A stretch of DNA of 64,000 nucleotides, from contig NC_092674.1 of assembly GCF_964355755.1 (NCBI RefSeq), positions 23,896,001 through 23,960,000 of the forward strand. Reading direction: 5' to 3'. Within the stretch, counting starts at the first letter, position 1; each line of letters opens with the position of its first letter. The notes under the pieces were generated by a model. That model was not told the origin of the DNA and ran no database searches. It saw only the letters and a list, made by a program, of their open reading frames with translations. Shown here one piece after another: positions 289 to 63,072 of the stretch. A program made the translations under genes and the position numbers. This DNA is from Antedon mediterranea (lineage: Eukaryota > Echinodermata > Crinoidea > Comatulida > Antedonidae).

Positions 289-360
289 GCCCCAGTGGTC
301 TAATGGTTAGGACATCTGCATATCAAGCAGGCGGTCCGAGTTCGAGTCTCGGTTGGGGCG
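289..360 (+). tRNA. tRNA with AUC anticodon, Glu-like body, copy 1
   Basis: A 72-nt cloverleaf: acceptor GCCCCAG/TTGGGGC, D stem GTCT/GGAC, anticodon stem TCTGC/GCAGG with loop ATATCAA, T stem CCGAG/CTCGG with loop TTCGAGT, discriminator G. The anticodon is ATC, which would read GAU (Asp). A box (TGGTCTAATGG) and B box (GTTCGAGTC) are intact, and TTTTT follows at 363. The D arm resembles eukaryotic tRNA-Glu, so TTC or CTC to ATC is a one-base change. It could be a functional variant, a pseudogene family or a SINE source. The fold was made by hand. Confidence 0.85.
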
Positions 361-653
361 ACTTTTTCTCATTCTCACAGATTTCCTCATCTTTATCGTT
401 TCAAATTAATTAATTAAATTTCAGTATATCACCGGGCGGTTTAGAATTAATGTTCTTTGCCTGATTTGTTTATATATATAAAAAGTATCTCTTCGGAGAT
501 CCCGCCTCGTGAATAAAAATGCTGTAAGATGAGGGCGTATCAATTTGATCTCTGGTGTGGGTGCGTACAACTGAGGACTAGTGCTGTTCCGCCGTACCAC
601 GCCGAGAATGTTAAAAAGTCGCTATCCAATCGAGTTCGAACAATACCGTGAAA

Positions 654-725
654 GCCCCAGTGGTCTAATGGTTAGGACATCTGCATATCAAGCAGGCGGT
701 CCGAGTTCGAGTCTCGGTTGGGGCG
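654..725 (+). tRNA. tRNA with AUC anticodon, copy 2
   Basis: Same 72 bases as copy 1, with all stems intact and a T-run terminator immediately downstream. It lies 365 bp after copy 1 in a full-length unit. Confidence 0.85.
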
Positions 726-924
726 ACTTTTTCTCATTCTCACAGATTTCCTCATCTTTATCGTTTCAAATTAATTAATTAAATTTCAGTATATCACCAG
801 GCGGTTTAGAATTAATGTTCTTTGCCTGATTTGTTTATATACTGAGGACTAGTGCTGTTCCGCCGTACCACGCCGAGAATGTTAAAGAGTCGTTATCCAA
901 TCGAGTTTGAACAATACCATGAAA

Positions 925-996
925 GCCCCAGTGGTCTAATGGTTAGGACATCTGCATATCAAGCAGGCGGTCCGAGTTCGAGTCTCGGTTGGGGCG
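925..996 (+). tRNA. tRNA with AUC anticodon, copy 3
   Basis: Identical tRNA body to copies 1 and 2. The unit is a short form (271 bp): about 94 bp of the 5' flank is missing between the TTTATAT tract and ACTGAGGACTAG. The internal A and B boxes are untouched. Confidence 0.85.
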
Positions 997-1195
997 ACTT
1001 TTTCTCATTCTCACAGATTTCCTCATCTTTATCGTTTCAAATTAATTAATTAAATTTCAGTATATCACCGGGTGGTTTAGAATTAATGTTCTTTGCCTGA
1101 TTTGTTTATATACTGAGGACTAGTGCTGTTCCGCCGTACCACGCCGAGAATGTTAAAGAGTCGTTATCCAATCGAGTTTGAACAATACCATGAAA

Positions 1196-1267
1196 GCCCC
1201 AGTGGTCTAATGGTTAGGACATCTGCATATCAAGCAGGCGGTCCGAGTTCGAGTCTCGGTTGGGGCG
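1196..1267 (+). tRNA. tRNA with AUC anticodon, copy 4
   Basis: Identical tRNA body in a second short unit with the same 5'-flank deletion as copy 3, so the short unit itself was duplicated. T-run terminator follows. Confidence 0.85.
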
Positions 1268-1561
1268 ACTTTTTCTCATTCTCACAGATTTCCTCATCTC
1301 TATCGTTACAAATTAATTAATTAAATTTAAGTATATCACCGGGCGGTTTAGAATTAATGTTCTTTGCCTCTTGTGTTTATATATATAAAAAAGTATCTCT
1401 TCGGAGATCCCGCCTCGTGAATAAAAATACTGAAAGATGAGGGCATATCAATTTGATCTCTGTTGCGCGTGCGTACAACTGAGGACTAGTGCTGTTCCGC
1501 CGTACCACGCCGAGAATGTTAAAGAGTTGTTATCCAATCGAGTTCGAACAATACCATGAAA

Positions 1562-1633
1562 GCCCCAGTGGTCTAATGGTTAGGACATCTGCATATCAAG
1601 CAGGCGGTCCGAGTTCGAGTCTCGGTTGGGGCG
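1562..1633 (+). tRNA. tRNA with AUC anticodon, copy 5
   Basis: Identical tRNA body in a full-length unit (366 bp after copy 4). Its flanks have several point changes while the tRNA has none. Confidence 0.85.
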
Positions 1634-1803
1634 ACTTTTTCTCATTCTCACACATTTCTTCATCTCTATCGTTTCAAATTAATTAATTAAATTTCAGTAT
1701 ATCACCAGGCGGTTTAGAATTAATGTTCTTTGCCTCTTGTGTTTATATATCTGAGATCCCGCCTCGTGAATAAAAATACTGTAAGATCAATTTGATCTCT
1801 GGT

Positions 1804-1985
1804 GCACGTGCGTACAACTGAGGACTAGTGCTGTTCCGCCGTACCACGCCGAGAATGTTAAAGAGTCGCTATCCAATCGAGTTCTCATCTTTATCGTTTC
1901 AAATTAATTAATTAAATTTCAGTATATCACCGGGCGGTTTAGAATTAATGTTCTGTGCCTGATTTGTTTATGTATATATATATAT
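1804..1985 (+). pseudogene. Array unit with the tRNA deleted
   Basis: The 5' flank runs normally to ATCCAATCGAGTTC near 1884 and then jumps to CTCATCTTTATCG, the 3' flank sequence about 35 bp past the usual tRNA end. The whole tRNA and its terminator are gone. A shared TTC at the junction fits a microhomology deletion. Confidence 0.85.
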
Positions 1986-2265
1986 ATAAATCCAAAGGCA
2001 AATTACTGAAAAAATGACAATGCTGTGGGTATCAGTGGCTGGATCTCAATGGAGATACAAAAAAAAAAGCGAAAAGCTAAATCAAAACGATAAAGTAAAC
2101 AGCCAGAAAAGTTAGCAGAGCTTTCGGGCAACACTTGCCCTTCATCAGTGCAAGTGAGGGAATTTGGATAAAGTCATAGCATATGAGTTGGCAAGTGCTG
2201 CTTGGGTGGACAGGAATAAAAGAAATATAACAATAGAAACAGCATGTTGAATAGTGGGTGGAGAC

Positions 2266-2332
<67 letters not shown>

Positions 2333-2345
2333 TTTCAAAAATTAA
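1986..2345. repeat. Unrelated insert interrupting the tRNA array, with (AT)n tract
   Basis: No similarity to the tRNA unit. It contains TTTCGGGCAACACTTGCCC followed by TTCATCAGTG, a motif seen in many animal retroelement ends, and a pure (AT)n run at about 2269-2331. Read on the minus strand, 2121-2148 has the layout CTGATGA - 6-bp stem - GAAA. Probably a retroelement fragment, Penelope-like or LINE; family unsure. Confidence 0.5.
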
Positions 2346-2594
2346 TTAAATAATTTTCAGTGTATCACCGGGCGGTTTGGAATTTATTTCTATGCCTGTT
2401 GTGTTTATATATATATAAAAGTATCTCTCGAGATCCCGCTTAGTGAATAAATATACTGAATTATAGATGAGGGCGTATCAATTTGATCTCTGGTGCGCGT
2501 GCGTACAACTGAGGACTAGTTGTGTTCCAACCGTACCACGCCGAGAATGTTAAAGGGTCGTTATCCGATCGAGTTAAAGAACAATACTATGAAA

Positions 2595-2666
2595 GCCCCA
2601 GTGGTCTAATGGTTAGGGCAACTGCATATCAAGCAGACGGTCCGAGTTCGAGTCTCGGTTGGGGCG
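2595..2666 (+). tRNA. tRNA with AUC anticodon, copy 6 (diverged subfamily)
   Basis: Same cloverleaf and ATC anticodon. Changes from copy 1 are GAC to GGC in the D stem (a T-G wobble), and TCTGC to ACTGC with GCAGG to GCAGA, leaving an A-A mismatch at the outer anticodon-stem pair. A and B boxes and the T-run are intact. Confidence 0.8.
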
Positions 2667-2966
2667 ACTTTTTCTCATTCTCCCAGATTTCCTCATCTTT
2701 ATCGTTTCAAAAATTAATTAAATAATTTTCAGTGTATCACCGGGCGGTTTGGAATTTATTTCTATGCCTGTTGTGTTTATATATATATAAAAGTATCTCT
2801 CGAGATCCCGCTTAGTGAATAAATATACTGAATTATAGATGAGGGCGTATCAATTTGATCTCTGGTGCGCGTGCGTACAACTGAGGACTAGTTGTGTTCC
2901 AACCGTACCACGCCGAGAATGTTAAAGGGTCGTTATCCGATCGAGTTAAAGAACAATACTATGAAA

Positions 2967-3038
2967 GCCCCAGTGGTCTAATGGTTAGGGCAACTGCATA
3001 TCAAGCAGACGGTCCGAGTTCGAGTCTCGATTGGGGCG
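2967..3038 (+). tRNA. tRNA with AUC anticodon, copy 7 (diverged subfamily)
   Basis: As copy 6, 372 bp downstream, with one further change: the T stem reads CTCGA instead of CTCGG, so its outer C-G pair is lost. It is the weakest copy and may be decaying. Confidence 0.75.
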
Positions 3039-11500: not shown

Positions 11501-12083
11501 CGTAAAACAAAAAGATATCTCACTCAGTCTCATAAAACAAAAAGATATCTCACTCAGTCTCATAAAACAAAAAGATATCTCACTCAGTCTCATAAAACAA
11601 AAAGATATCTCACTCAGTCTCATAAAACAAAAAGATATCTCACTCAGTCTCATAAAACAAAAAGATATCTCACTCAGTCTCATAAAACAAAAAGATATCT
11701 CACTCAGTCTCATAAAACAAAAAGATATCTCACTCAGTCTCATAAAACAAAAAGATATCTCACTCAGTCTCATAAAACAAAAAGATATCTCACTCAGTCT
11801 CATAAAACAAAAAGATATCTCACTCAGTCTCATAAAACAAAAATATATCTCACTCAGTCTCATAAAACAAAAAGATATCTCACTCAGTCTCATAAAACAA
11901 AAAGATATCTCACTCAGTCTCATAAAACAAAAAGATATCTCACTCAGTCTCATAAAACAAAAAGATATCTCACTCAGTCTCATAAAACAAAAAGATATCT
12001 CACTCAGTCTCATAAAACAAAAAGATATCTCACTCAGTCTCATAAAACAAAAAGATATCTCACTCAGTCTCATAAAACAAAAA
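11501..12083. repeat. 30-bp tandem array, 19 units, almost invariant
   Basis: The unit is CATAAAACAAAAAGATATCT plus CACTCAGTCT. There are nineteen consecutive units plus a 13-bp partial; only the first two bases of unit one and one base near 11844 (AAATATATCT) differ. Because 30 is a multiple of three, long open frames arise on both strands; these are not genes. Confidence 0.97.
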
Positions 12084-15581: not shown

Positions 15582-16607
15582 TATTTGAAATAACTTGGAC
15601 AAATAAAGACAAAAAAATGATCAACCCTCCTTAATCACACCGTGGAACGGAAAGGCTGTCCACACGTTGAAACCTCAAGCAGCATGATATCCTATATACC
15701 CCCCTCTATAACTTTAAAGGTCTGTGCGTTACGTATGAAACGCCAAAAATGACAATTTCCTTTGTCTAATGGCATCAATGAAGGAAAAACACACACAAAA
15801 CAAACAATCAAGGAAAAAAAGGTCAGATGTAGGCCTACTGAAACTTGTATGGTCAGTGGTCCATTAACGCTCAGAGGCCTACCTTGTTATCAATGTAAGT
15901 GGAACAATCATCTATCTCTAGAAGTAGGCCTAAATAAAAAAGGCAAATCTTGTTTGTAATGGAAAGAGCGAAGTTGGCACGTCAATAAAAAAAAAACAGC
16001 ATTAGAGATTTGTCATCGTTACCATTTGTTAATACGCGTGCCGGAATCTAAATGCATTGAATCTAAAAAAAATAACATCAAAGGTTTCATGTCCGTTGCC
16101 GACAGAGCGTGTTACAACATAAGTAGGCTTCAGAGGCGCTGCGGAGGAAGTTCCCAGCAGGGTCGACCCCGATTCGATTAGGCCGGTTGATAACTTGACA
16201 ATCACCAGGCACTACAAAATAATAATAGTAACAGTTTATGTGCAACTTTCTAGAGTTTTCTAGAAAAAAAATTTAGAAAACTCAGATCTGAGTTTTCTAG
16301 ATCCTAGAAAACTCAGATATATCTGCGATCTGAGTTTTTTAGATCTGAGTTTTTTAGATCTGAGTTTTCTAGACACCCTCGCGCCAACAGATGGTGTTCA
16401 AAGAGCGTATCTCTTTGATTGGCAGCAGTGCTTGTAAGCGCGTTGCGCATTACAGTTTGATCGCAACGCCGGCCTATACAAGTCCTTGTGTTTTTTGTCC
16501 ATTTTAGACAGCCAATGAGAGAGAGATAAATCTAAACAAAAGTATTAAACCACGCCCTCTACACTGTTATGATAACAATCATCATTATAGTTTCATAATT
16601 GATATTA
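15582..16607. other. Divergent promoter side of the NDP kinase gene
   Basis: No coding sequence recognised. 16251-16376 consists of repeated palindromic GATCTGAGTTTTCTAG and CTAGAAAACTCAGAT blocks that could form alternative hairpins. Confidence 0.5.
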
Positions 16608-17558
16608 CAGTAGTACTTATGGAACGCCTCCTCTGCCTTCAGTTCACATTTGTCATGCAGTACACACCAATCGTCATGCAGTACACACCAATGGTCATGC
16701 AGTACACACCAATCGTCATGCAGTACACACCAAACATCATGCAGTACACACCAATCGTCATGCAGTACACACCAAACATCATGCAGTACACACCAATCGT
16801 CATGCAGTACACACCAATCGTCATGCAGTACACACCAGTGGTCATGCAGTACACACCAATCGTCATGCAGTACACACCAATCGTCATGCAGTACACACCA
16901 ATCGTCATGCAGTCAAATATTGCGTAATTTATACCGCCACCTATCGACAAAATCGAATATCACGTGACGTTTATTAGACGGCTGTAAAACTAGGCTATTC
17001 AAACATTATACTACAGCAACTCACGCTGTCTACTACTACACCGCACGTGCTTTATGACTAAAATGGCTGGAAAAACTATTAAATAAATCTTGGAATCTAT
17101 AGGACGTAAAGCACGTGCGGTGGTGTAGTAGTAGACAGCGTGAGTTGCTGTAGTATAAAGTTTGTATATAGCCTTAGTTTTACAGCCGTCTAATAAAAGT
17201 CACGTGATATTCAATTTTGTCGATAGGTGGCGGTATAAATTACGCAATATTGGACTGCATGGCGATTGGTGTGTACTGCATGACGATTGGTGTGTACTGC
17301 ATGACGATTGGTGTGTACTGCATGACCATTGGTGTGTACTGCATGACGATTGGTGTGTACTGCATGACGTTTGGTGTGTACTGCATGATGATTGGTGTGT
17401 ACTGCATGACGATTGGTGTGTACTGCATGATGTTTGGTGTGTACTGCATGACCATTGGTGTGTACTGCATGACCATTGGTGTGTACTGCATGACCATTGG
17501 TGTGTACTGCATGATAAATGTGAACTGAAGGCAGAGGAGGCGTTCCATAAGTACTACG
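16608..17558. mobile_element. Foldback transposon with 21-bp repeats in both arms
   Basis: Arms of about 450 bp (16608-17056 and 17104-17558) are near-perfect inverted copies around a 47-bp spacer. Outer ends read CMGTAGTACTTATGGAACGC with flanking TA. Each arm carries about 12-13 units of GTCATGCAGTACACACCAAT (21 bp), then a non-repetitive inner part with CACGTGACTTTTATTAGACG and ACCGCACGTGCTTTA. The layout of a tandem-repeat outer domain and unique inner domain is that of sea-urchin TU foldback elements (established family), but the unit length differs. The 21-bp period creates long open frames on both strands; none looks real. Confidence 0.92.
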
Positions 17559-17653
17559 GTAATTAAAGGCTAAAGTGATTTGCATACAGTAACACATACG
17601 GATTCTATTACAGTTTCACACAACGCATACTCTAATTAACACAACATCACAAG

Positions 17654-20600
17654 ATGACACTTACCCTGAAGAAACTAATTTGTTTCTTGTTTGTAACAAG
17701 TTTGGCAATTATTGGACTATTATCGGTAAGATTAAATTTACTTTCATCTTGTTGCTCAAACTATAGATAATAGATCTCTCGACACGAAATCGAATAAAAA
17801 GAAACTTAAACTCATATGAAAATATTCCGTGTCACACCACCCTCACAAAAATGGGATTGGGTGTTCATCTGGCAAAATAATCTTTTAACCAACCAACCAT
17901 GTTTGTTTATCAGTGTTATTTTAACATTTAACTATAACTTTTAGCATCCGGCGGAGGTTACGGGGAAATACATTTGTTTTATCTTATGTGGGTTCATCCC
18001 ACTTTTATTTCCATGTTCTCTTTACATATATTTTTCATTTTCATTTTAATAAACTATACATATTATTATATTAAAAATGTTTGTTTTTTAAAAAGTTTTG
18101 TTCATTTGTTTACATATTATTACATTGATTTTTGTGTTTATTTTTTCTCTACATAGTTTCCTCTTTTTATACATATTATCTATAACATATTTTCATTAAC
18201 AAGCTTATGTTTTCTTACATATTCATTTTCTTTGTTGCTCAAACTGTAGATAATAGATCTCTCGACACAAAATCGTATAAAAAGAAACTTCAACTCATAT
18301 GAAAACATTCCGGTCACACCACCCTTCTGTTCTGTTCTTCTGGCAAAATGATTTCATCGAAAATTTAAAAAACAAAACAGCCCTTTTAAAATAATCTTTG
18401 GCAGCACCACACATTATTTAACGATTTACAGAATATAGTTTTATTTTTTGTCAGAGTATTTTTTAACAGCTGTTTATAACTATACTATTAGCACTATAAT
18501 TATTAGCATCAAGAGAAGAAAAGAATTATTTTATTTTTTTTTTAATTTTTTTTTTTTATTTTTTTTTATTTCATACTTATCCAACAGCGAGTAACCCGCC
18601 AATTACAGGATGCATAAACTATTTAATAATTTCACAAGACAAACATATACACAAGATGCTCTACATAAACAAATACTTATTATTAAGTCTTTGTGAGTGG
18701 AGATGTAAATTGTCATGAAAACCTGACATATGACAGGACTTGAACCCAGGACCCTTAGATTGGTAGCCAAGCATCATAACCACCAAGCCACAGCTCCACT
18801 CCTAATTATGACATCATCAAGGCAATGCTTGATGACATGGGTTCGTGAATCGTAGTTTTATTAGGTCCATAGTTATTGTCCCTCTCTCATTTTTCATCCA
18901 TCAGTGAATTTTGAAATTAATTTAAAAAAGGTTATCGATTGATAAAGAAATCCATCATTAACATAATCGATATAACAACTAACCCTTGCTTCTTATCTCC
19001 AAGTTCATACTCTTTTGCAGAAACGCTCTGCAAAACTTTTTTCTGGGTTTACTTTAAGTTTTAAATTAGCCTTTGGCTTTGTAATAAATTACCATTCCTA
19101 ACATATAAAGTATCATAGTCTCTACATGAACATTCTAGAATAAGAGTATGTTTAGATTTAAGAAACCATGTATAATTATTATAAGAACAATCAGGAACAT
19201 TCCAGTATGCTATTAATATAAAACTGTAATACAATAGAATAAGAAGTATAAAGAACGATCTAGAAGGATAGGAACATCTTGTATATAAAGGGATGTAAAA
19301 CTATTGTAAGGTTGTTGGATATTACTTAGTTGTTGGATATTAGATTGTAAAGGTTATTGTGAAGCTGTTTAAAGTGCTTACTGGATTGTTGAAAGTTGAA
19401 GTTGATTGAAATTAAAGCTTTGTTTTTGAGTTATTTTACAACTTTGTAGATTTTGTGTGTATACTTTTATGTCACAAGGAAGTTCCTAAAGTATTTTCAA
19501 CCGCTCGGAAACATGCGTAAAGGGAGTTCGTGACAGGGCTTAAAAAATGTATTTCCATTGATATCCAGCCACTTATAGAGCCTCGGCATTTACATTTTTT
19601 TTCAGTAATTCGCCTGTTGATTTAATTTTTCTTTGGATAAGCGTTCCTAGTTCGGGGAAGCGATGATGATTTATAATTAATTCAATTCAATTCAACTTTT
19701 ATTTCAGACAATTGTCCATATGGTATAATACATTACACACAAAAAAAGATGAAGGAGAGAGGACCAAAACTTTTATCTATTGGTATATAATGCCTCTCTC
19801 CATTTGTAGTACATGTTTGAATCAATCAACAAATATTTATATATACAAATTAACTTTCTGTTTTTGCTTTTCATTATTCTTGTAAGAAATAGGTAAGTCG
19901 AAATCCTTAAATATTCATAAAATGATGGAATATTGTTTTCCACAAACAAATTCCTCGCACTAACAAATCTGGGTTGTCCCAACAACCGCCGGAAAGCATC
20001 ATTATAACAAACTTTAAGTCGGTTGATATCTTTTTTTAAATGATTAGACCATAAAGGAGAACAGTATATGTTAATACAATATGATCTAAACAAAAAACAT
20101 TCTGACTAGAAAACGTTGTTATTGATACCAGGACACAAGGAACCTAATCACAACAAGAGGCACATTTCTCTCAATAAGCTTTCTGAACAATGTCGGGTGG
20201 TTAACTCTTTGCTTGAGTCCAGAAAACAGGCATATACCGGGCTACCATTGCGGTTATAGAAATGAGTCTTTTAGATTGGAAGTTGGAAGAATAGAATTAT
20301 AATGTTAATACTGAAACTACCTACAGCACCGGTTGTTTTCTTCTAAATAGGGGGCGTCGGATGGAAGATATTCTGCTATAATTTTCTTTTTCGTATTTAG
20401 TGTTTTATTGATTTTGTAATATCACAAACTTGTGTAAAAACAATCAATGAACGAGTGGAATGGAATGGTTCTTTTAAGCCTGGTTTCCCTTAAAATCGCT
20501 ACAGCCTTTCCATTAAAGAACCATTCCATTCCCAATGAGATTCGTGATATTTCTTAACGGTTCATTCAATAATTTTAAATTAACTCTAAAGCAATATTTC

Positions 20601-29600: not shown

Positions 29601-32600
29601 CTAAGGCTGTAAATTTAATATTTAATAGAATACCATAGATTTACCATTTGCATTTATAAATCGTGTTTAGTAATAAGAAAAGAAAAGAAACAAAATCAGG
29701 AATCAAAAATAATTTGGAGATTATTTTGCTATGAATTAAAGGATTTATTAACAAATGAATTTATGCATAATTTACATAAGGCTCAAAAGAAATGGACGAA
29801 TAATTTAAAAGATAAACTATTAAAACTATCAAAAGACTTAATGGTAATAATGTAATTATTTCATTGATTCCTTTTTTTTCTTACCTTATCATAATGGATG
29901 TATATTAACGTAAACTCCGTTTTTAGGCATCAGTTATACTTTTTAAGATGCCAATTATTCAAATACATGTATGTGTATATGATATCCCGCTTCTTGAATC
30001 ATTTAATCATTGGTGGTGCAATATAATTGATGGCATGTCAATATAATCTGTAATTATTGGTATTTATTTTTTAATATATATATATATATATTTCTATATT
30101 TGCAATATTTATATTGTATGCATGTCAATGTTATCTGCATGTATTTGTATTTGTCCAATATATATATTTTTCTATATTTGCAATATTTTATATCGTAAAT
30201 ACAAATTGTAAGTATTAGTTGTACCAAGGTGACATCGGGTATGAAGCGTCTCACATACGCACAGAGCCAAAATCGCATCTTGGACTTGCACAGTGTATGG
30301 ACTCTAACCTTACGGTTTTCATTAAATATATCATTGCATGCTATCATTCTAAATATCTAACTTTCAAACTTTTGCATTCCTCTTTTTTCATCTCCTCCTT
30401 TTTATCTTGGTGAAAAGGGAGGATACTACATTTTCCTCCTCTGAGTTTATAGCCTCTCTACTCGAACACAAATAAGATCACAAATAAGATAGTTTCACAA
30501 GAAAATTTTAATCATGTATTTTACCGCCATTTTTCATTTTTACATTTTAAATAACATCGTATCTAAAATTTTAAATGAAAACAAAATGGTTAATACTGAA
30601 TTCAAGCATCTTATTATGTAAATATACCTGTATTTTAACTACTTTAAAAACTTACTTTTAGGCCTAATTGTCACAAATGTACTTATATGTATATAATATA
30701 TTCACCAATGAGAATTTAAATAAACGTGAGATGAACTCACACAAGACAAAAAAAAAGAGAATACCATAGACACTGTATATACACCTTCATTTTTGTGTTG
30801 TTTTTATATATATTCAAAAATAAAAAATAATCAATGTTTTTTATGTCTTTTGTTAATATTTTAATTTAAAAAAAATATATATATCCACCATGACTTATTT
30901 CCCGTTTGTGAGGACGTAATATGTCATTATCGTCTGGTCCAAATTTAATAAGCTTGTTCTTTACTTTGGCGTAATGGCTAAACCCAGGGGCCCCGGATCT
31001 CATGGGAGAGCAGGGTGGGGAGGGGGCGGTGCTGAGTAGGCATTACAATATGTCGAAAAGGCTATAAATATCCGAGACCTCGAGAGTTGGAGAGCCCCTT
31101 GGGGTTCCTAAGTCAGGAGCCTCAAGCCTCTGCGTTACGCCACTGGTTCTGTAATTTTAATTTCTACTTGGTTGAGTATTCTTGTTTCTTTTGTTAATGT
31201 CTGAATGTCTTGTTGTGTAAAGAATGGTGGTTGCTTTAAAACGACGTATGTTGGTGTTCCATCCAGTAAATACACGATGGCAGCTGGGTCGTTTTCCCTC
31301 ATGTCCTTTTTTGTACCATGCCCACTCTTTAAAAACATAAATAGTTTGACTTATGGCCATGGTTAGAATGTGTTTTACTACATGATGTAATCGTTAGTTT
31401 TACTGATAATTCTATTCACCGTCAAATACATTTATTTATTTATCTTTTTTAGGCGAATAGTAGAATTGGAGTATTTAGGACTACGTTGGGAGTGTATATG
31501 CCTGTAACAGTATATAAGTCTGTTAAAACAAGAATACCTCGATACCAGGTTGTGAAGACGTCCAGAATTAGCAAAGGAGTTCAACATACGTATATGGCCC
31601 GTTCAGCAGGTACAATGGGCTTACCTGATGTTTCAAAAACAAAACTTCGAATTAATAACACCAACATTCGAAAGGGAGAATTTTTTAGTTTTTTTGTTGA
31701 TTTCAAAGACAAATTTGGTCGTCAACGTATAAAAGGTGGAGATTTTATTTTTGCAACAATTGATATAAACGGTACACGGTCCACGGGTAAAGTAATTGAC
31801 TTTGACAACGGGACATACGAAGTGATTTTCTTAGCTTCGAGTGAAGGAAAAGCTACACCAACCATCCAGCTTGTTCATCCCCAAGAAGCTGTGTATTATC
31901 TCGAAAACATCGAATGGCCGGTAGAAGATCGCGTTTACTGGATCGGCAGCTTTATTAAAAATAAATTGACTGAAACATCCTCGTGTGCAATAAAACGTGT
32001 TGGAAGTTGGGTAAACAAATGCGAGTACGCTTTTCCTGAAGCACTAGGTGGAGTAATGTTTATTTGCAATAAACCAAAAACATTACCATGTGATTCGCTT
32101 ATATCCACAAGAACTGACAAGAGCAGTGTTGGAAAGAATTTCCAGAAGGTTCCTAAGAATGTTGTAGACAATTATTTCTCAAAGTAAGAATATTGATCAA
32201 TTGATAATGTGACATTATTATGCTATTATTGAATTAAAATTATGATTATTATTCCCCACCCCCAACTGTGTGTTTCCACTATACCGTCACTAATACCGTA
32301 TAAAAGGTACCATCCAAATTTAAATTATCAATACCAATACCGGTTGTGGATTACTACTGTCTTATATTCATGTCCTAGTGGGAAACAAGCTTAATTACAA
32401 AGAGTCTGATATAAAATAGGGATTATATCAATTGTATGTGGAAATAATGTCAAGGGAGACATGTCCGGGTAAATGACAGCTAGTTGCTCGTACATAAAAT
32501 ATAACCTAGATTATCGGTCCTTCACATTTTCGGAGCTATCTTATCGTGTAGCAGATGTATACATTTTACAAAATAATTCTTTTATTTCATAGAAATGTCA

Positions 32601-35600
32601 GATATGCAGTTATGAAAAACCAATTTCATATAATCATCAACTCGTCTACAGGTAAGAAGTGGGGGAGGAGAGATGCTACTTTAAACATGCAACATTGACA
32701 ATTAGTTACCAGCTCATTATAGTCACATGGGTTGATCAGGTCCATATGCAGCTAGCTGAGCTTCTGGGTTGATCAGGTCCATATGCAGCTAGCTGAGCCA
32801 CACGGATTGATCAGGTCTATATGCAGCTAGCTGGGCCACACGGGTTGATCAGGTCCATATGCAGTTAGCTGAGGCACACGGGTTGATCAGGTCCATATGC
32901 AGCTAGCTAAGCCACATGGGTTGATCAGGTCCATTATGCAGCTAGCTGAGCCACACGGGTTGATCAGGTCCATATGCAGCTAGCTGAGCCACACGGGTTG
33001 ATCAGGTCCATATGCAGCTAGCTGAGCCACACGGGTTGATCAGGTCCATATGCAGCTAGCTGGGCCACACGGGTTGATCAGGTCCATATGCAGCTAGCTG
33101 AGCCACATGGGTTGATCAGGTCCATATGCAGCTAGCTGAAGCACACGGGTTGATCAGGTCCATATGCAGCTAGCTGAGCCACACGGGTTGATCAGGTCCA
33201 TATGCAGCTAGCTGAGGCACACGGGTTGATCAGGTCCATATGCAGCTAGCTGAGCCACAAGGGTTGATCAGGTCCATATGCAGCTAGCTGAGCCACACGG
33301 GTTGATCAGGTCCATATGCAGCTAGCTGAGCCACACGGGTTGATCAGGTCCATATGCAGCTAGCTGAGCCACACGGGTTTATCAGGTCCATATGCAGCTA
33401 GCTGAGCCACACGGGTTGATCAGGTCCATATGCAGCTAGCTGAGCCACACGGGTTGATCAGGTCCATATGCAGCAAGATGAGCTCCTCAATTTCTTCATA
33501 GGTCTTGTTTTCCAAATGTTTCTATTTTTGTATAAGATAATTTCATGAATGTATAAATTTCTTTTTATCAAACCCAATGGAAAAATACGAAATTAGATGG
33601 TAAATACCTTCTTGACGGCTTCTTCGTTACCTTAAAGAACTAATTTTGATTAAAAGAGATTTACATTCATTTGTGATTACAAATCAGATGTACATTTCTA
33701 ATCAAGATAATTCGTATGTTACAAAATTTAGGCATTAATCTTTACCTGTTATCTAACACGACTTGTATTTGTTCATGAATGCCAAGAACCACAGAAGTAA
33801 TATCCTTTTTCTGTATCACCCTGTTTCACTATAGAACACGACATTTATAATCAAGATAATTCGTATGTTACAATAGGCATTAATCTTTACCTGTTATCTA
33901 ACACGACTTGTATTTGTTCATCATGAATGCCAAGAACCACAAAAGTAATATCCTTTTTCTGTATCACCCTGTTTCACTATAGAACACGACATTTATAATC
34001 AAGATAATTCGTTTGTTACAATAGGCATTAATCTTTACCTGTTATCTAACACGACTTGTATTTGTTCATGAATGCCAAGAACCACAATAGTAATAACCTT
34101 TTTCTGTATCACCCTGTTTCACTATAGAACAGGACATTTCTAATCAAGATAATTCGTATGTTACAATAGGCATTACTCTTTACCTGTTATCTAACACGAC
34201 TTGTATTTGTTCATGAATGCCAAGAACCACAAAAGTAATATCCTTTTTCTGTATCACCCTGTTTCACTATAGAACAGGACATTTCTAATCAAGATAATTC
34301 GTATGTTACAATAGGCATTAATCTTTACCTGGTATCTAACACGACTTGTATTTGTTCATGAATGCCAAAACCACAGAAGTGATATCCTTTTTCTGTATCA
34401 CCCCGTTTCACCCTTTATAGAACACTTAAAACCGAAGAAGCATGTCATTTCTGTTCGAAAGCTTGGTAGCCTAATTAATGACTTCACCCTGACCAGAATG
34501 TAGACGAACAACTCACAGGAAGCTAGCAAAGATCCTTGCCATCAATTATTATACTGTAATTGTAGGCCTATTATAATTATGTTGATATAAAGTTTGCGGT
34601 AAAACCGCGTATATAAGTTCTGAAAATAACTGTTGAGTTTCTCAACGTTTAGATCAATTTGCTTTGAGCATTTTGATCGAAACTTTGAGAAACACAATAG
34701 TTCTTTTCAGAACTAATACACGTGGTGTACCGCAAACTTTATATCAACATTTGATTTCGCCATGCAAACCTTCAAACAATGTAGGCCTATTATAAATGAT
34801 AGGCAGTGACGCCGTATCGATTTTCTCACAACAAACGATGTAATTTTACAATTCATAATACAAATAAATAATTTAATTAATTTAACTGAATTGTTAATTG
34901 TTTCTGAGGCGCCGTTGTCTTTTTCCCCTTTTTTCAGTTTATGCATGAAGCTTAGCCTTTTTTTTATCATCTTTAAGCTCTGTCCACACTATCAAACTAC
35001 CGTAGTTTGACAAAAAAAATGTCATGTGCCCAAATATGGTAGTGACATACCCAAATATGGTAATGATATGACATCATCATGTCGCTAAATGGACACATTG
35101 TCACATAAAGTTTAATAGTGTAGACAGAGCTTTACTAAAAGTATTGTACGTTATTATTATGAATTATATTAAGATATTTATTTATGTCAACTTCATCACT
35201 GTTTACTTGATGCAATAAAGGAAATAAATAAAAGATAAGTAAACTACTGTTTGACTTGATATAACGACCTGATTTCAAACTTGTTTTCAGTATGTGGTGG
35301 CAACGCAATGACGTAAGGAAGAAGCGCATCTTTGACTTGTATCCAAACACATTGTTTGAATGTTTTCATGGCGAAATCCAATGTTGATATACAGTTTTGC
35401 TGTACACCACGTATATTAGTTCTGAATTGTTGATCGAAACGTCGGGTTTTTTTTAAACTGATCTGATACGTGGTGTACCGCAAAACTTGAATCAATAATA
35501 ATATATATATATATTTTTCTTTTAGATCCTAATGTGAATAGAGATTTAGTCGAATCGTTTGATCTTCCTGTCTGTAAGGGTATATTACCCAGTACATTGA

Positions 35601-36286
35601 GTGATGGTTTCTGGACTGGGGAAGTATGGCATTCGCTAGTCTGCAAAACGAAACAATGGAGTCCATCTGAAATACGCAGATGTGTCAGAGGGAAACATCT
35701 AATATTAATGGGCGACTCAACTACTAGACAATGGGGGGAGGTTCTGGTAAAAACTTTGAATTTAAGTACTAAGATAACATTCCAGTACATTGAAGAAAGA
35801 AGTGATACCTTAAACCTAACGTTTTATTTTCACCCATTTATAATAGGCGTTCAACATACCTATAAATTAGCTGAGTTACATTTTGAGGTGGATATTTTGA
35901 AAAATCTCGTCGGATGCGATTACTACATAGTGATAAGTCCTTGGGCACATTATACGCAATGGGCGCGGGATTCATACATTGAAAGATTGCAGTTATTAAA
36001 AATTGCTGTTCTTCATTTTAAGGAGAGGTGTCCCGACACACCCGTGGTGTTAAAATCTCCCCATCCAAGAGACCATACGAAACTTCCGCAATTTATATAC
36101 GGCAGTGATTACTTAATACATAGGTTGCGACAGGTTATGAAATCTGTATTTGCTGATACTGATGTGTTTTTTATGGACGTATGGGATTTGGTTAATTCTT
36201 ACCACTCACAAAATGAAATTCATATGCCGTCACCAGTTATTCTACAAAAACTGTATATTTTCTTTTCGCATGTATGTAAGTTTTAA
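17654..36286 (+). CDS. NXPE-family (neurexophilin and PC-esterase domain) protein
   Basis: Exons: 17654-17725 (ATG), 31453-32183, 32593-32651, 35526-36286 (TAA); phases match at every GT-AG junction, giving 540 residues, close to the family's length. Exon 1 encodes a signal-anchor (LICFLFVTSLAIIGLLS). Exon 2 (residues 25-268) is the neurexophilin/Ig-like part; the last exon is the PC-esterase domain with the SGNH-type GDS motif at residues 350-352 (LMGDSTTRQW), and DVWD...H near the end in the place of the catalytic Asp-His. The protein is predicted type II membrane or secreted; its substrate is unknown. Exon 1 is assigned by phase and position across a 13.7-kb intron, so it is less certain than the rest. 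AATAAA at 36663 is the likely poly(A) signal. Confidence 0.85.
17748..18325. repeat. Direct repeat pair of ~95 bp
   Basis: TAGATAATAGATCTCTCGAC followed by similar downstream sequence occurs at 17748-17842 and 18231-18325. Between them is AATCTTATGTGGGTTCATCC-like sequence that is also found inverted in NDP kinase intron 2 (about 13915-13985). Confidence 0.7.
18560..18803 (-). repeat. tRNA-derived SINE, family S1, copy 2
   Basis: The minus-strand head GTGGAGCTGTGGCTTGGTGG, then GGTCCTGGGTTCAAGTCCTG (clear B box), and the body with complement of CCAATTACAGGATGCATAAA. It matches 3486-3678. Confidence 0.75.
19680..20093 (-). mobile_element. LINE 3' end with reverse-transcriptase C-terminal fragment
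   Basis: A 106-codon minus-strand frame contains RLKVCYNDAFRRLLGQPRF and SARNLFVENNIPSFYEYLR, the C-terminal signature after the RT domain in CR1/Rex1-like LINEs. It ends in a short microsatellite tail (minus strand GAATT repeats, plus 19680-19696), the usual 3' end of that group. The copy is severely 5'-truncated and dead. Confidence 0.8.
20690..20858 (+). mobile_element. LINE 3' end fragment
   Basis: TTGGAGAGACACACCCTACC and CTTTTGTCTCTCCTCGGCTC, then GCCGAAATGAATAGAATAAA. This resembles the 3' UTR and tail of L2/CR1-type elements. No coding part is left. Confidence 0.5.
20838..21530. repeat. Ancient duplicated segment, copy 1
   Basis: Includes ATCGATAAAGATCGATTTTA, TGCTCCAAATGCTGACATAC and TTTAGTTTGTCTTTTTATAA in the same order as in copy 2 (26828-28690). 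Confidence 0.75.
22701..23195. mobile_element. Element D MITE, complete copy
   Basis: Left end GAGAGGTTTCGCAATCTTAC, right end the inverse (GGTTGCGAAACCTCCC), flanking TA on both sides; 495 bp. The inner palindromic arms read CGAATACGATAACAAAAACG and CGTTTTCGTTATCGTATTCG. Non-coding. Confidence 0.85.
23629..26270 (+). mobile_element. S2 SINE inside element D, itself split
   Basis: SINE pieces 23629-23895 and 26244-26270, about 294 bp in total. It has a B-box-like GGGTTCGAGGCT, body GGTTCTGGTGGTAGAACGAG and TCTTCTCGGATAAGG, and tail AAACAAACAAACAA directly before the ACGCA duplication. Other S2 copies: 61030-61275, 12990-13165 and an inverted one near 40690. Confidence 0.8.
23896..26236. mobile_element. 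2.34-kb hAT-like non-autonomous element
   Basis: Ends are AGGGCCGTAGCCAGG and CCTGGCTACGGGCCT, with GGTTACC duplicated at 23889-23895 and 26237-26243. Seven clear bases are duplicated; hAT elements give 8. No transposase frame survives, and the interior is AT-rich with no recognisable gene. Confidence 0.85.
26995..27560. mobile_element. LINE-type 3' tail fragments
   Basis: At 26995, repeated ATTCAAT units followed by AAACTTTATTGTCAAACTC look like a minus-strand LINE tail. Near 27540, TAATAAATCGAATTTGAATC looks like a plus-strand tail. No RT sequence is left. Confidence 0.4.
28343..28538. mobile_element. MITE with AGAGTATCACGGTG ends
   Basis: AGAGTATCACGGTGCTGACG at the left and its inverse (GTCACACCGTGATACTCT) at the right; arms also share GCGCTGCGTGGTTGCTAGC / GCTAGCAACCATGCAGCGC. 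Confidence 0.85.
28730..29325. repeat. GTCGGT/GTCTGT simple repeats
   Basis: Runs of GTCGGTCTGTCTGTCGGTC at 28733-28803 and 29280-29325 are each followed by CCGGTATCACTATGC. The first is preceded by GTGGAAGCGACTCTATAG, and a related piece (TAGCGACTCTATAGCTAATG) sits at 37040-37100, so these belong to one dispersed repeat family. Confidence 0.8.
29326..30966. other. NXPE intron sequence, nothing recognised
   Basis: AT-rich with short (AT)n and an imperfect ~75-bp direct repeat at 30075-30195 (TTTCTATATTTGCAATATTT twice). No coding or RNA gene seen. Confidence 0.4.
30967..31146. mobile_element. hAT-like MITE (GGCGTAA ends), copy 1
   Basis: Left TGGCGTAATGGCTAAACCCA, right CTGCGTTACGCCA; interior AGGGGCCCCGG, GAGAGCCCCTTGGGGTTCCT. 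A relative lies at 53215-53390. Confidence 0.65.
32722..33474. repeat. 38-bp tandem array, about 20 units
   Basis: The unit holds GGGTTGATCAGGTCCATATG followed by CAGCTAGCTGAGCCACAC. Only scattered single-base changes occur (one indel near 32935). It lies in NXPE intron 3. Confidence 0.95.
33692..34430. repeat. ~147-bp tandem array, five units
   Basis: Each unit starts near TAATCAAGATAATTCGTATG and includes CTGTTATCTAACACGACTTG and CCTTTTTCTGTATCACCCTG. Starts are at about 33699, 33848, 33997, 34142 and 34288. It directly follows the 38-bp array in the same intron. Confidence 0.9.
34581..34748. repeat. 168-bp palindrome and a related half at 35348-35500
   Basis: Arms start GTTGATATAAAGTTTGCGGT and end with the inverse. 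The right arm with its flank (34683-34790) recurs inverted at 35348-35430, which continues into GATCGAAACGTCGGGTTTTT and ACGTGGTGTACCGCAAAAC. It is probably the terminal part of a retroelement family. Confidence 0.75.
34974..35134. mobile_element. M1 palindromic MITE, copy 3
   Basis: TAAGCTCTGTCCACACTATC at the left and TAGTGTAGACAGAGCTTTA at the right, in NXPE intron 3. Confidence 0.8.
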
Positions 36287-61642: not shown

Positions 61643-63072
61643 ATGTTTAGTGGTGGGGCAAATAAAAGTGGATTTGGAACAACTGGGAACACCTTTGGTT
61701 CAGGTGAGATGGCTAATCAATTAATTGATAATCAATTGATAAGAATCAATAATGAATTGATTTGTTTGTGATTGGAACAAAACCCAAGTCACTGGAAAAT
61801 TGTGGACTTTGAAAATCACCCTATGATATGCAGTAATAAAAATAATAGTTCATTCTTATACATTGCATGTACTGTTAGTGTAAGCAAGCCCTCAATGCGC
61901 TGCACATTATTACCCCGGTCATTTTTTTGATCAAACAAACATGCGTCGTATGGAAACATATTCCCATAATAATGCAGCTAGTAATCAATTCAAAGTTGTG
62001 TCTTGATCTAATCCTTGTTCGTTTTAATGGAAAGTGTCCTCTTAATGGAGGTGTCCTCTTAATGGAGGTATCCTCTTAATGGAGGTATCCTCTTAATGGA
62101 GGTGTCCTCTTAATGGAGGTATCCTCTTAATGATCCTCTTAATGGAGGTGTCCTCTTAATGGAGGTGTCCTCTTAATGGAGGTGTCCTCTTAATGGAGGT
62201 GTCCTCTTAATGGAGGTGTCCTCTTAATGGAGGTGTCCCCTTAATGGAGGTGTCCCCTTAATGGAGGTGTCCCCTTAATGGAGGTGTCCTCTTAATGGAG
62301 GTGTCCTCTTAATGGAGGTGTCCTCTTAATGGAGGTGTCCTCTTAATGGAGGTGTCCTCTTAATGGAGGTGTCCTCTTAATGGAGGTGTCCTCTTAATGG
62401 AGGTGTCCTCTTAATGGAGGTGTCCTCTTAATGGAGGTGTCCTCTTAATGGAGGTGTCCCCTTAATGGAGGTGTCCTCTTAATGGAGGTGTCCTCTTAAT
62501 GGAGGTGTCCTCTTAATGGAGGTGTCCTCTTAATGGAGGTGTCCTCTTAATGGAGGTGTCCTCTTAATGGAGGTGTCCTCTTAATGGAGGTGTCCTCTTA
62601 ATGGAGGTGTCCTCTTAATGGAGGTGTCCTCTTAATGGAGGTGTCCTCTTAATGGAGGTATCCTCTGAGTATGGAGGTATCCTCTGAGTATGGAGGTATC
62701 CTCTGAGTATGGAGGTATCCTCTTAATGGAGGTATCCTCTTAATGGAGGTATCCTCTGAGTATGGGTGTTCTAAAGGAAGGGTCTACTGTATTTTATTAG
62801 ATGACTTTAAGTTCTTATAATGTACTGTACATTGGAATTTAATAACGTTGATTGTTTTTAGTGACCATACATGTATAATTAACATAAAATTTAAATTTTA
62901 ACAGGACTATTTGGTGCGAACAAGCAAACAACTGGTTTTGGAAGTACAAGCGGATTTGGAGGTCAAAGTTCAGGAACTGGTCTTTTCGGCACAAGTGCAA
63001 ACCAATCATCAGCCGGTACACTGTTTGGAACTGGAACTGCCAACAACTCATTCGGTACTGGCAGCAATACAG
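61643..63072 (+). CDS. NUP98: NUP98-like GLFG nucleoporin, first two coding exons (partial)
   Basis: Exons 61643-61703 (ATG) and 62905-63072, donor GTATGA at 63073; the gene runs off the right edge. The 76 residues seen are Gly/Ser/Thr/Phe-rich, with MFSGGANKSGFGTTGNTFGS, two GLFG repeats (GLFGANK, GLFGTS), further FG dipeptides and no charged segments. That is the N-terminal GLFG region of NUP98, which lines the pore channel and binds transport factors. The start matches NUP98-type openings (MFxxxxxxxFGTT). NUP58-like and NUP153 FG regions fit less well. Intron 1 (1.2 kb) contains the 17-bp array at 62034-62768. Confidence 0.75.
62034..62768. repeat. 17-bp tandem array, about 42 units
   Basis: The unit is TGTCCTCTTAATGGAGG with TATCC and TCTGAGTATGG variants at the ends. 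It is followed by GTTCTAAAGGAAGGGTCTAC, which looks like a pogo/Tigger terminus, so the array probably grew from the inside of such an element. It lies in NUP98 intron 1. Confidence 0.95.

Follow-up and report, generated by a model that had tools for sequence, protein, structure and literature searches.

A recently active, non-autonomous foldback transposon family with TA...TA termini and 6-bp target-site duplications in the crinoid Antedon mediterranea

A long palindrome in the analyzed window (a 64,000-nt stretch of the Antedon mediterranea genome, C5:23896001-23960000 of the 354.4-Mb assembly) belongs to a family of non-autonomous foldback DNA transposons that was active in the recent past. 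The family moves as a unit with TA...TA termini, duplicating 6 bp of its target, and its anatomy shows a cut-and-paste element with such ends and such a target-site duplication (TSD). Taken as a whole, the evidence makes it likely that a recent non-autonomous foldback is served in trans by a mover of the IS3EU/GingerRoot type and that its two arms have been independent of each other since one founding palindrome.

Anatomy and boundaries of the element

The two inverted arms (16604-16992 and 17175-17563) are 389 nt each and 97% complementary, with a second inverted pair nested inside them (16996-17042 and 17122-17168). Arrays of 21-bp units were detected independently in both arms, with 12 units per arm anchored at 16654...16906 and 17255...17507, and when single-stranded, the element folds as a single long hairpin (-537 kcal/mol vs -135 kcal/mol for shuffles). 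A preliminary description of this DNA had recognized a foldback transposon with a TU-like architecture, and outer tandem arrays with an inner non-repeated domain are indeed present, but the boundaries given there, 16608-17558, have to be moved inward. When the arm was compared with the genome, 140 matches were obtained, the full-length ones beginning at query base 15, which corresponds to window position 16618. Comparison with other copies sets the true ends at 16618 (TATGGAACGCCTCC...) and 17549 (...GGAGGCGTTCCATA); the outer 14 bp on each side (ATTACMGTAGTACT) are missing from all other copies and are thus not part of the element. The family-wide end is TATGGAACGCCTCCTCTGCCTTCAGTTCAC, beyond which the DNA is unrelated between copies, as judged from the flanks of many of them, and the termini TATGG...CCATA are found in the window copy and in essentially all copies with readable ends. 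The features, in window coordinates, are as follows.

16618..17549, no strand: complete non-autonomous foldback transposon, TATGG...CCATA, 932 bp, with ends fixed by other copies
16612..16617, plus strand: left TSD AGTACT, from end comparison
17550..17555, plus strand: right TSD AGTACT, from end comparison
16604..17563, no strand: target palindrome ATTACAGT-AGTACT-ACGGTAAT, split into 16604-16617 and 17550-17563 and absent from other copies
16618..16653, plus strand: left outer domain, 36 bp, holding the terminal inverted repeat, from end and unit comparison
16654..16905, plus strand: left tandem array, 12 units of 21 bp (CATGCAGTACACACCAATCGT)
16906..17261, no strand: inner domain (core), 356 bp, nearly palindromic, without coding capacity, containing the inverted pair 16996-17042 / 17122-17168
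17262..17513, minus strand: right tandem array, 12 units of 21 bp
17514..17549, minus strand: right outer domain, 36 bp, holding the terminal inverted repeat, from end and unit comparison

Flanked by the 6-bp TSD AGTACT, the window copy landed in the center of a nearly perfect 22-bp host palindrome, in which 10 of 11 center pairs match, a level reached by ~0.1% of window positions. A 3-nt indel is the only difference between its core and those of the copies C2:11923338 and C2:11880769.

As to the surroundings, what may be a first coding exon, MTLTLKKLICFLFVTSLAIIGLLS followed by GTAAGA, lies at 17654-17725, 104 bp downstream of the element, and NXPE/neurexophilin-like exons are located at 31453-32184 and 35462-36283; the foldback may reside in a promoter or 5' UTR. 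Elsewhere, the window contains seven tRNA-Asp-like genes in tandem units of 271-372 bp (289-3038) and long minisatellite arrays at 11503-12083, 32724-33483, and 62024-62757, with 30-, 38-, and 17-bp units that are 94-99% alike.

Insertion and recent movement of the family

The 354-Mb genome contains 224 family ends with at most two mismatches (~110 copies), compared with none for a control pattern. Overlapping loci were merged and ends then paired before TSDs were counted, with copies on C6-C11 read in part; TSD copies were gathered by a 6-bp match tolerating no more than one mismatch, the fair denominator being all simple end pairs (33). By this measure, 31 of the 33 complete readable copies carry a 6-bp TSD, which is perfect in 29 and varies in sequence between copies, and among the 31 there is no exact direct repeat of 3-5 or 7-12 bp. 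The two exceptions, C3:861155 and C2:11893660, lack a direct repeat at each length between 1 and 12.

In seven cases, the insertion sits within the core of a different copy of the family, and the joined site with a single TSD is intact in other cores. For instance, the empty site of C6:29763230, CAATGGCCTCCTAGCCGCGCCTG, is present in 14 cores, with no mismatches where shown. Once its two nested inserts (TSDs CAGCAA and GTAGAC) are removed, the copy at C6:29764441 measures 971 bp and is identical at 971 of 971 positions to C7:18881307. The empty sites and the element restored base for base demonstrate insertion, as opposed to local duplication. The window copy and C2:11923338 align without a substitution; gaps take up 24 positions (one 21-bp unit plus 3 nt), and the two copies have different TSDs (AGTACT and CCTATG, respectively). 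Such copies, free of substitutions yet residing at different sites with different TSDs, imply recent movement. The young age that the preliminary description had considered for the palindrome applies to the window insertion; the palindrome itself predates the spread of the family.

Source of mobility and choice of target

The preliminary description had envisaged that a genome search with the ends would retrieve full elements with a transposase. The search recovered the ~110 copies, and no transposase-bearing one was found among the end pairs listed, which cover C6-C11 in part; for this reason, the superfamily is assigned indirectly. Complete IS3EU families have TA...TA termini and usually 6-bp TSDs (PMC10045372), and both structural marks are present here, the latter in 31 of 33 copies. 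This combination fits IS3EU/GingerRoot and not Tc1/mariner, Mutator, or TU, and we infer that the family is driven by an IS3EU/GingerRoot-type enzyme.

The longest copies were considered as well. The core of a 5,059-bp copy (C5:13234777-13239835) carries a nested dispersed repeat of ~3.6 kb and no transposase; because this insert is foreign and non-coding, the copy was ruled out as an autonomous partner. The repeat (L091:484-4440; C5:13235230-13239186), with AGTAG...CTACT ends and dozens of copies at 90-98% identity, itself contains a 642-bp inverted-repeat element. A 9.6-kb copy (C5:14112808-14122430) is not an independent long element but a segmental duplicate with the same flanks and TSD as the 5,059-bp copy; because the two long copies share their flanks, we rejected the idea that the 5,059-bp copy had undergone composite transposition. 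Searches with shorter end patterns returned only chance-level or already known matches. The genome does hold rva_4 and rve integrase domains and many integrase-type ORFs. None of 77 rva_4 integrase-like matches falls inside a pair of family ends, among the pairs listed, and the rve matches look mostly like long-ORF retroelement integrases. One rva_4 family, found at C8:21793437-21795055 and ~9 other places, has an intact integrase-like ORF and is recent, its copies being 98-99% identical; following it for 1.1 kb downstream did not bring up a terminus.

Under the proposed mechanism, an integrase-like enzyme, a DDE transposase of IS3EU/GingerRoot type acting in trans, would bind the outer 36-bp domains and perhaps also the 21-bp units, as the Galileo transposase does its repeats; by this analogy, the units are candidate transposase-binding sites. 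The enzyme would then excise the element and insert it into a target cut with a 6-bp stagger. A 112-bp minimal copy (C3:881501-881612) has both ends and a 6-bp TSD, GTGCCG, which suggests that the outer domains and two units may suffice for movement.

Other superfamilies with ~6-bp TSDs exist, which counts against the IS3EU-type assignment, and the foldback might instead be moved by one of these, such as an unusual hAT, P, MULE, or Polinton-type integrase. More than one superfamily has given rise to foldbacks, Mutator and P most often (PMC4079207; PMC3688188), and an autonomous partner was not found among the end pairs listed. We nevertheless judge this alternative rather improbable: the TSD is strictly 6 bp, compared with 8-10 bp in Mutator-type foldbacks (PMC4079207), the termini are TA...TA, and Dada elements are devoid of terminal inverted repeats and target small RNA genes (PMC3706591), whereas the present family has long terminal inverted repeats and dispersed targets.

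On C1-C5, 11 of 40 paired copies lie inside another copy according to their end coordinates, whereas the family occupies an estimated ~0.03% of the genome (~110 copies of ~1.1 kb); self-nesting is far above chance. By the same coordinates, nesting reaches a depth of four in the cluster C5:28664609-28676851 (outside the window), and further nested clusters are located at C6:29762653-29768193, C11:9363603-9365907, C1:4714116-4716421, and C2:11844473-11846404. The GTAGAC site was hit twice, by nested copies in opposite orientation within two hosts that have different outer TSDs. Among 29 distinct target sites, 4 are symmetric about the TSD in 7 or more of 10 pairs, compared with 0.3 sites expected, under a cut-off picked post hoc. 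Together, nesting and symmetric targets point to a preference for inverted-repeat DNA but fall short of proof. It is conceivable, if somewhat doubtful, that no foldback lineage before this one was known to depend on an integrase-like IS3EU/GingerRoot transposase, and that this enzyme homes to inverted-repeat DNA, chiefly to the family's own cores, where the nested clusters would offer a safe place to land. The marked self-nesting makes it a testable question whether inverted-repeat DNA is preferred by the enzyme.

Register of the two arms and comparison with known systems

The observation in the preliminary description that the arms hold the same number of units, with variants at matching places, is borne out: each arm has 12, with AAACA as the fourth and a GG-type unit as the ninth (AGTGG and AATGG, respectively). 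The best register between the arms is at zero shift, and 6 of 12 units are identical in register vs 3.2 expected for shuffled units (P ~0.02). This match and the 97% complementarity of the arms speak for a register maintained by gene conversion between the hairpin arms, or for a palindrome newly made. The comparison of unit variants across other copies, which the preliminary description had recommended, makes this reading very improbable. Each arm was encoded as a string of units, and unit edit distances were determined in subtypes A (8 copies) and B (14 copies). In subtype A, the two arms of a copy are on average 7.4 edits apart, opposite arms from different copies 7.1, and same-side arms 6.6 and 4.9; the corresponding values in subtype B are 11.5, 11.1, and 5.0 and 6.2. 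The arms of one copy are not nearer to each other than to opposite arms elsewhere in the family (permutation P of 0.80 in A and 0.997 in B), whereas same-side arms of different copies are closer than the two arms of one copy. Likewise, the inner 112 nt differ by 4.6% within a copy vs 4.5% between opposite sides in subtype A, and by 15.9% vs 15.8% in subtype B, and the side-specific bases in this region are fixed across copies. Since within-copy distance equals that between opposite arms of different copies, the arms do not homogenize each other.

Unit numbers of the left and right arms elsewhere are often unequal (8/13, 9/15, 24/3), and the sister copy C2:11923338 has 13/12 units despite the absence of substitutions relative to the window copy. 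Related left arms retain two adjacent GG-type units and the window arm has one; thus, the 12/12 count is most simply explained by loss of one unit. The equal number is incidental, and the founding palindrome is the source of the AAACA-AATCG-AAACA motif that the arms share. Both arms would have begun as one palindrome, hence their common unit pattern, and since the spread of the family, 21-bp units would have been gained and lost in each arm without arm-to-arm homogenization.

A Tc1/mariner-like element with a TA target and CMGTAG ends, for which the TTACMGTAG on both flanks of the window copy speaks, is refuted by the comparison of flanks: the CMGTAG bases, absent from all other copies, and the TA flank are host DNA of the split 22-bp palindrome, the element ends are TATGG...CCATA, and the duplication is AGTACT, with 6-bp TSDs of varied sequence in the family in place of the TA duplication of Tc1/mariner (IS630). 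Local inverted duplication of an immobile tandem array, which could produce a palindrome with two arrays in a single locus and against which the preliminary description had wished insertion to be weighed, is refuted by the ~110 dispersed copies, their TSDs and empty sites, and base-for-base identical copies on different chromosomes.

Copies with zero substitutions and unequal unit counts constitute a natural record of change in tandem arms, which proceeds in single-unit steps and in each arm separately. The resemblance to sea-urchin TU elements, for which PMC4079207 cites Liebermann et al. (1983), holds for the architecture, that is, long inverted arms with an outer tandem-repeat part and an inner non-repeated part. 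It does not extend to the dimensions: TU elements have 15-bp units and 8-bp TSDs, compared with 21 and 6 bp here. Tetris of Drosophila virilis, assigned to Mutator, shares the flanking domain, tandem array, inner domain, non-coding middle, and lack of a detected autonomous copy, but has 220-bp units and 8-10 bp TSDs (PMC4079207). Galileo, a member of the P superfamily in which repeats hold extra transposase-binding sites, likewise has long, internally repetitive inverted arms and provides a model for the proposed function of the arrays, but differs in its P-type THAP transposase and its ends (PMC3688188). So far, Mutator and P are the superfamilies to which most foldbacks have been attributed; if the present assignment is true, a recently mobile foldback with TA...TA termini and 6-bp TSDs would represent a third, integrase-like route to the hairpin architecture. 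No link between foldback arms of 21-bp tandem units and IS3EU was found in the literature searched. The family resembles IS3EU/GingerRoot (PMC10045372) in its TA...TA termini and 6-bp TSDs and differs from it in having long foldback arms built of 21-bp tandem units and no transposase seen.
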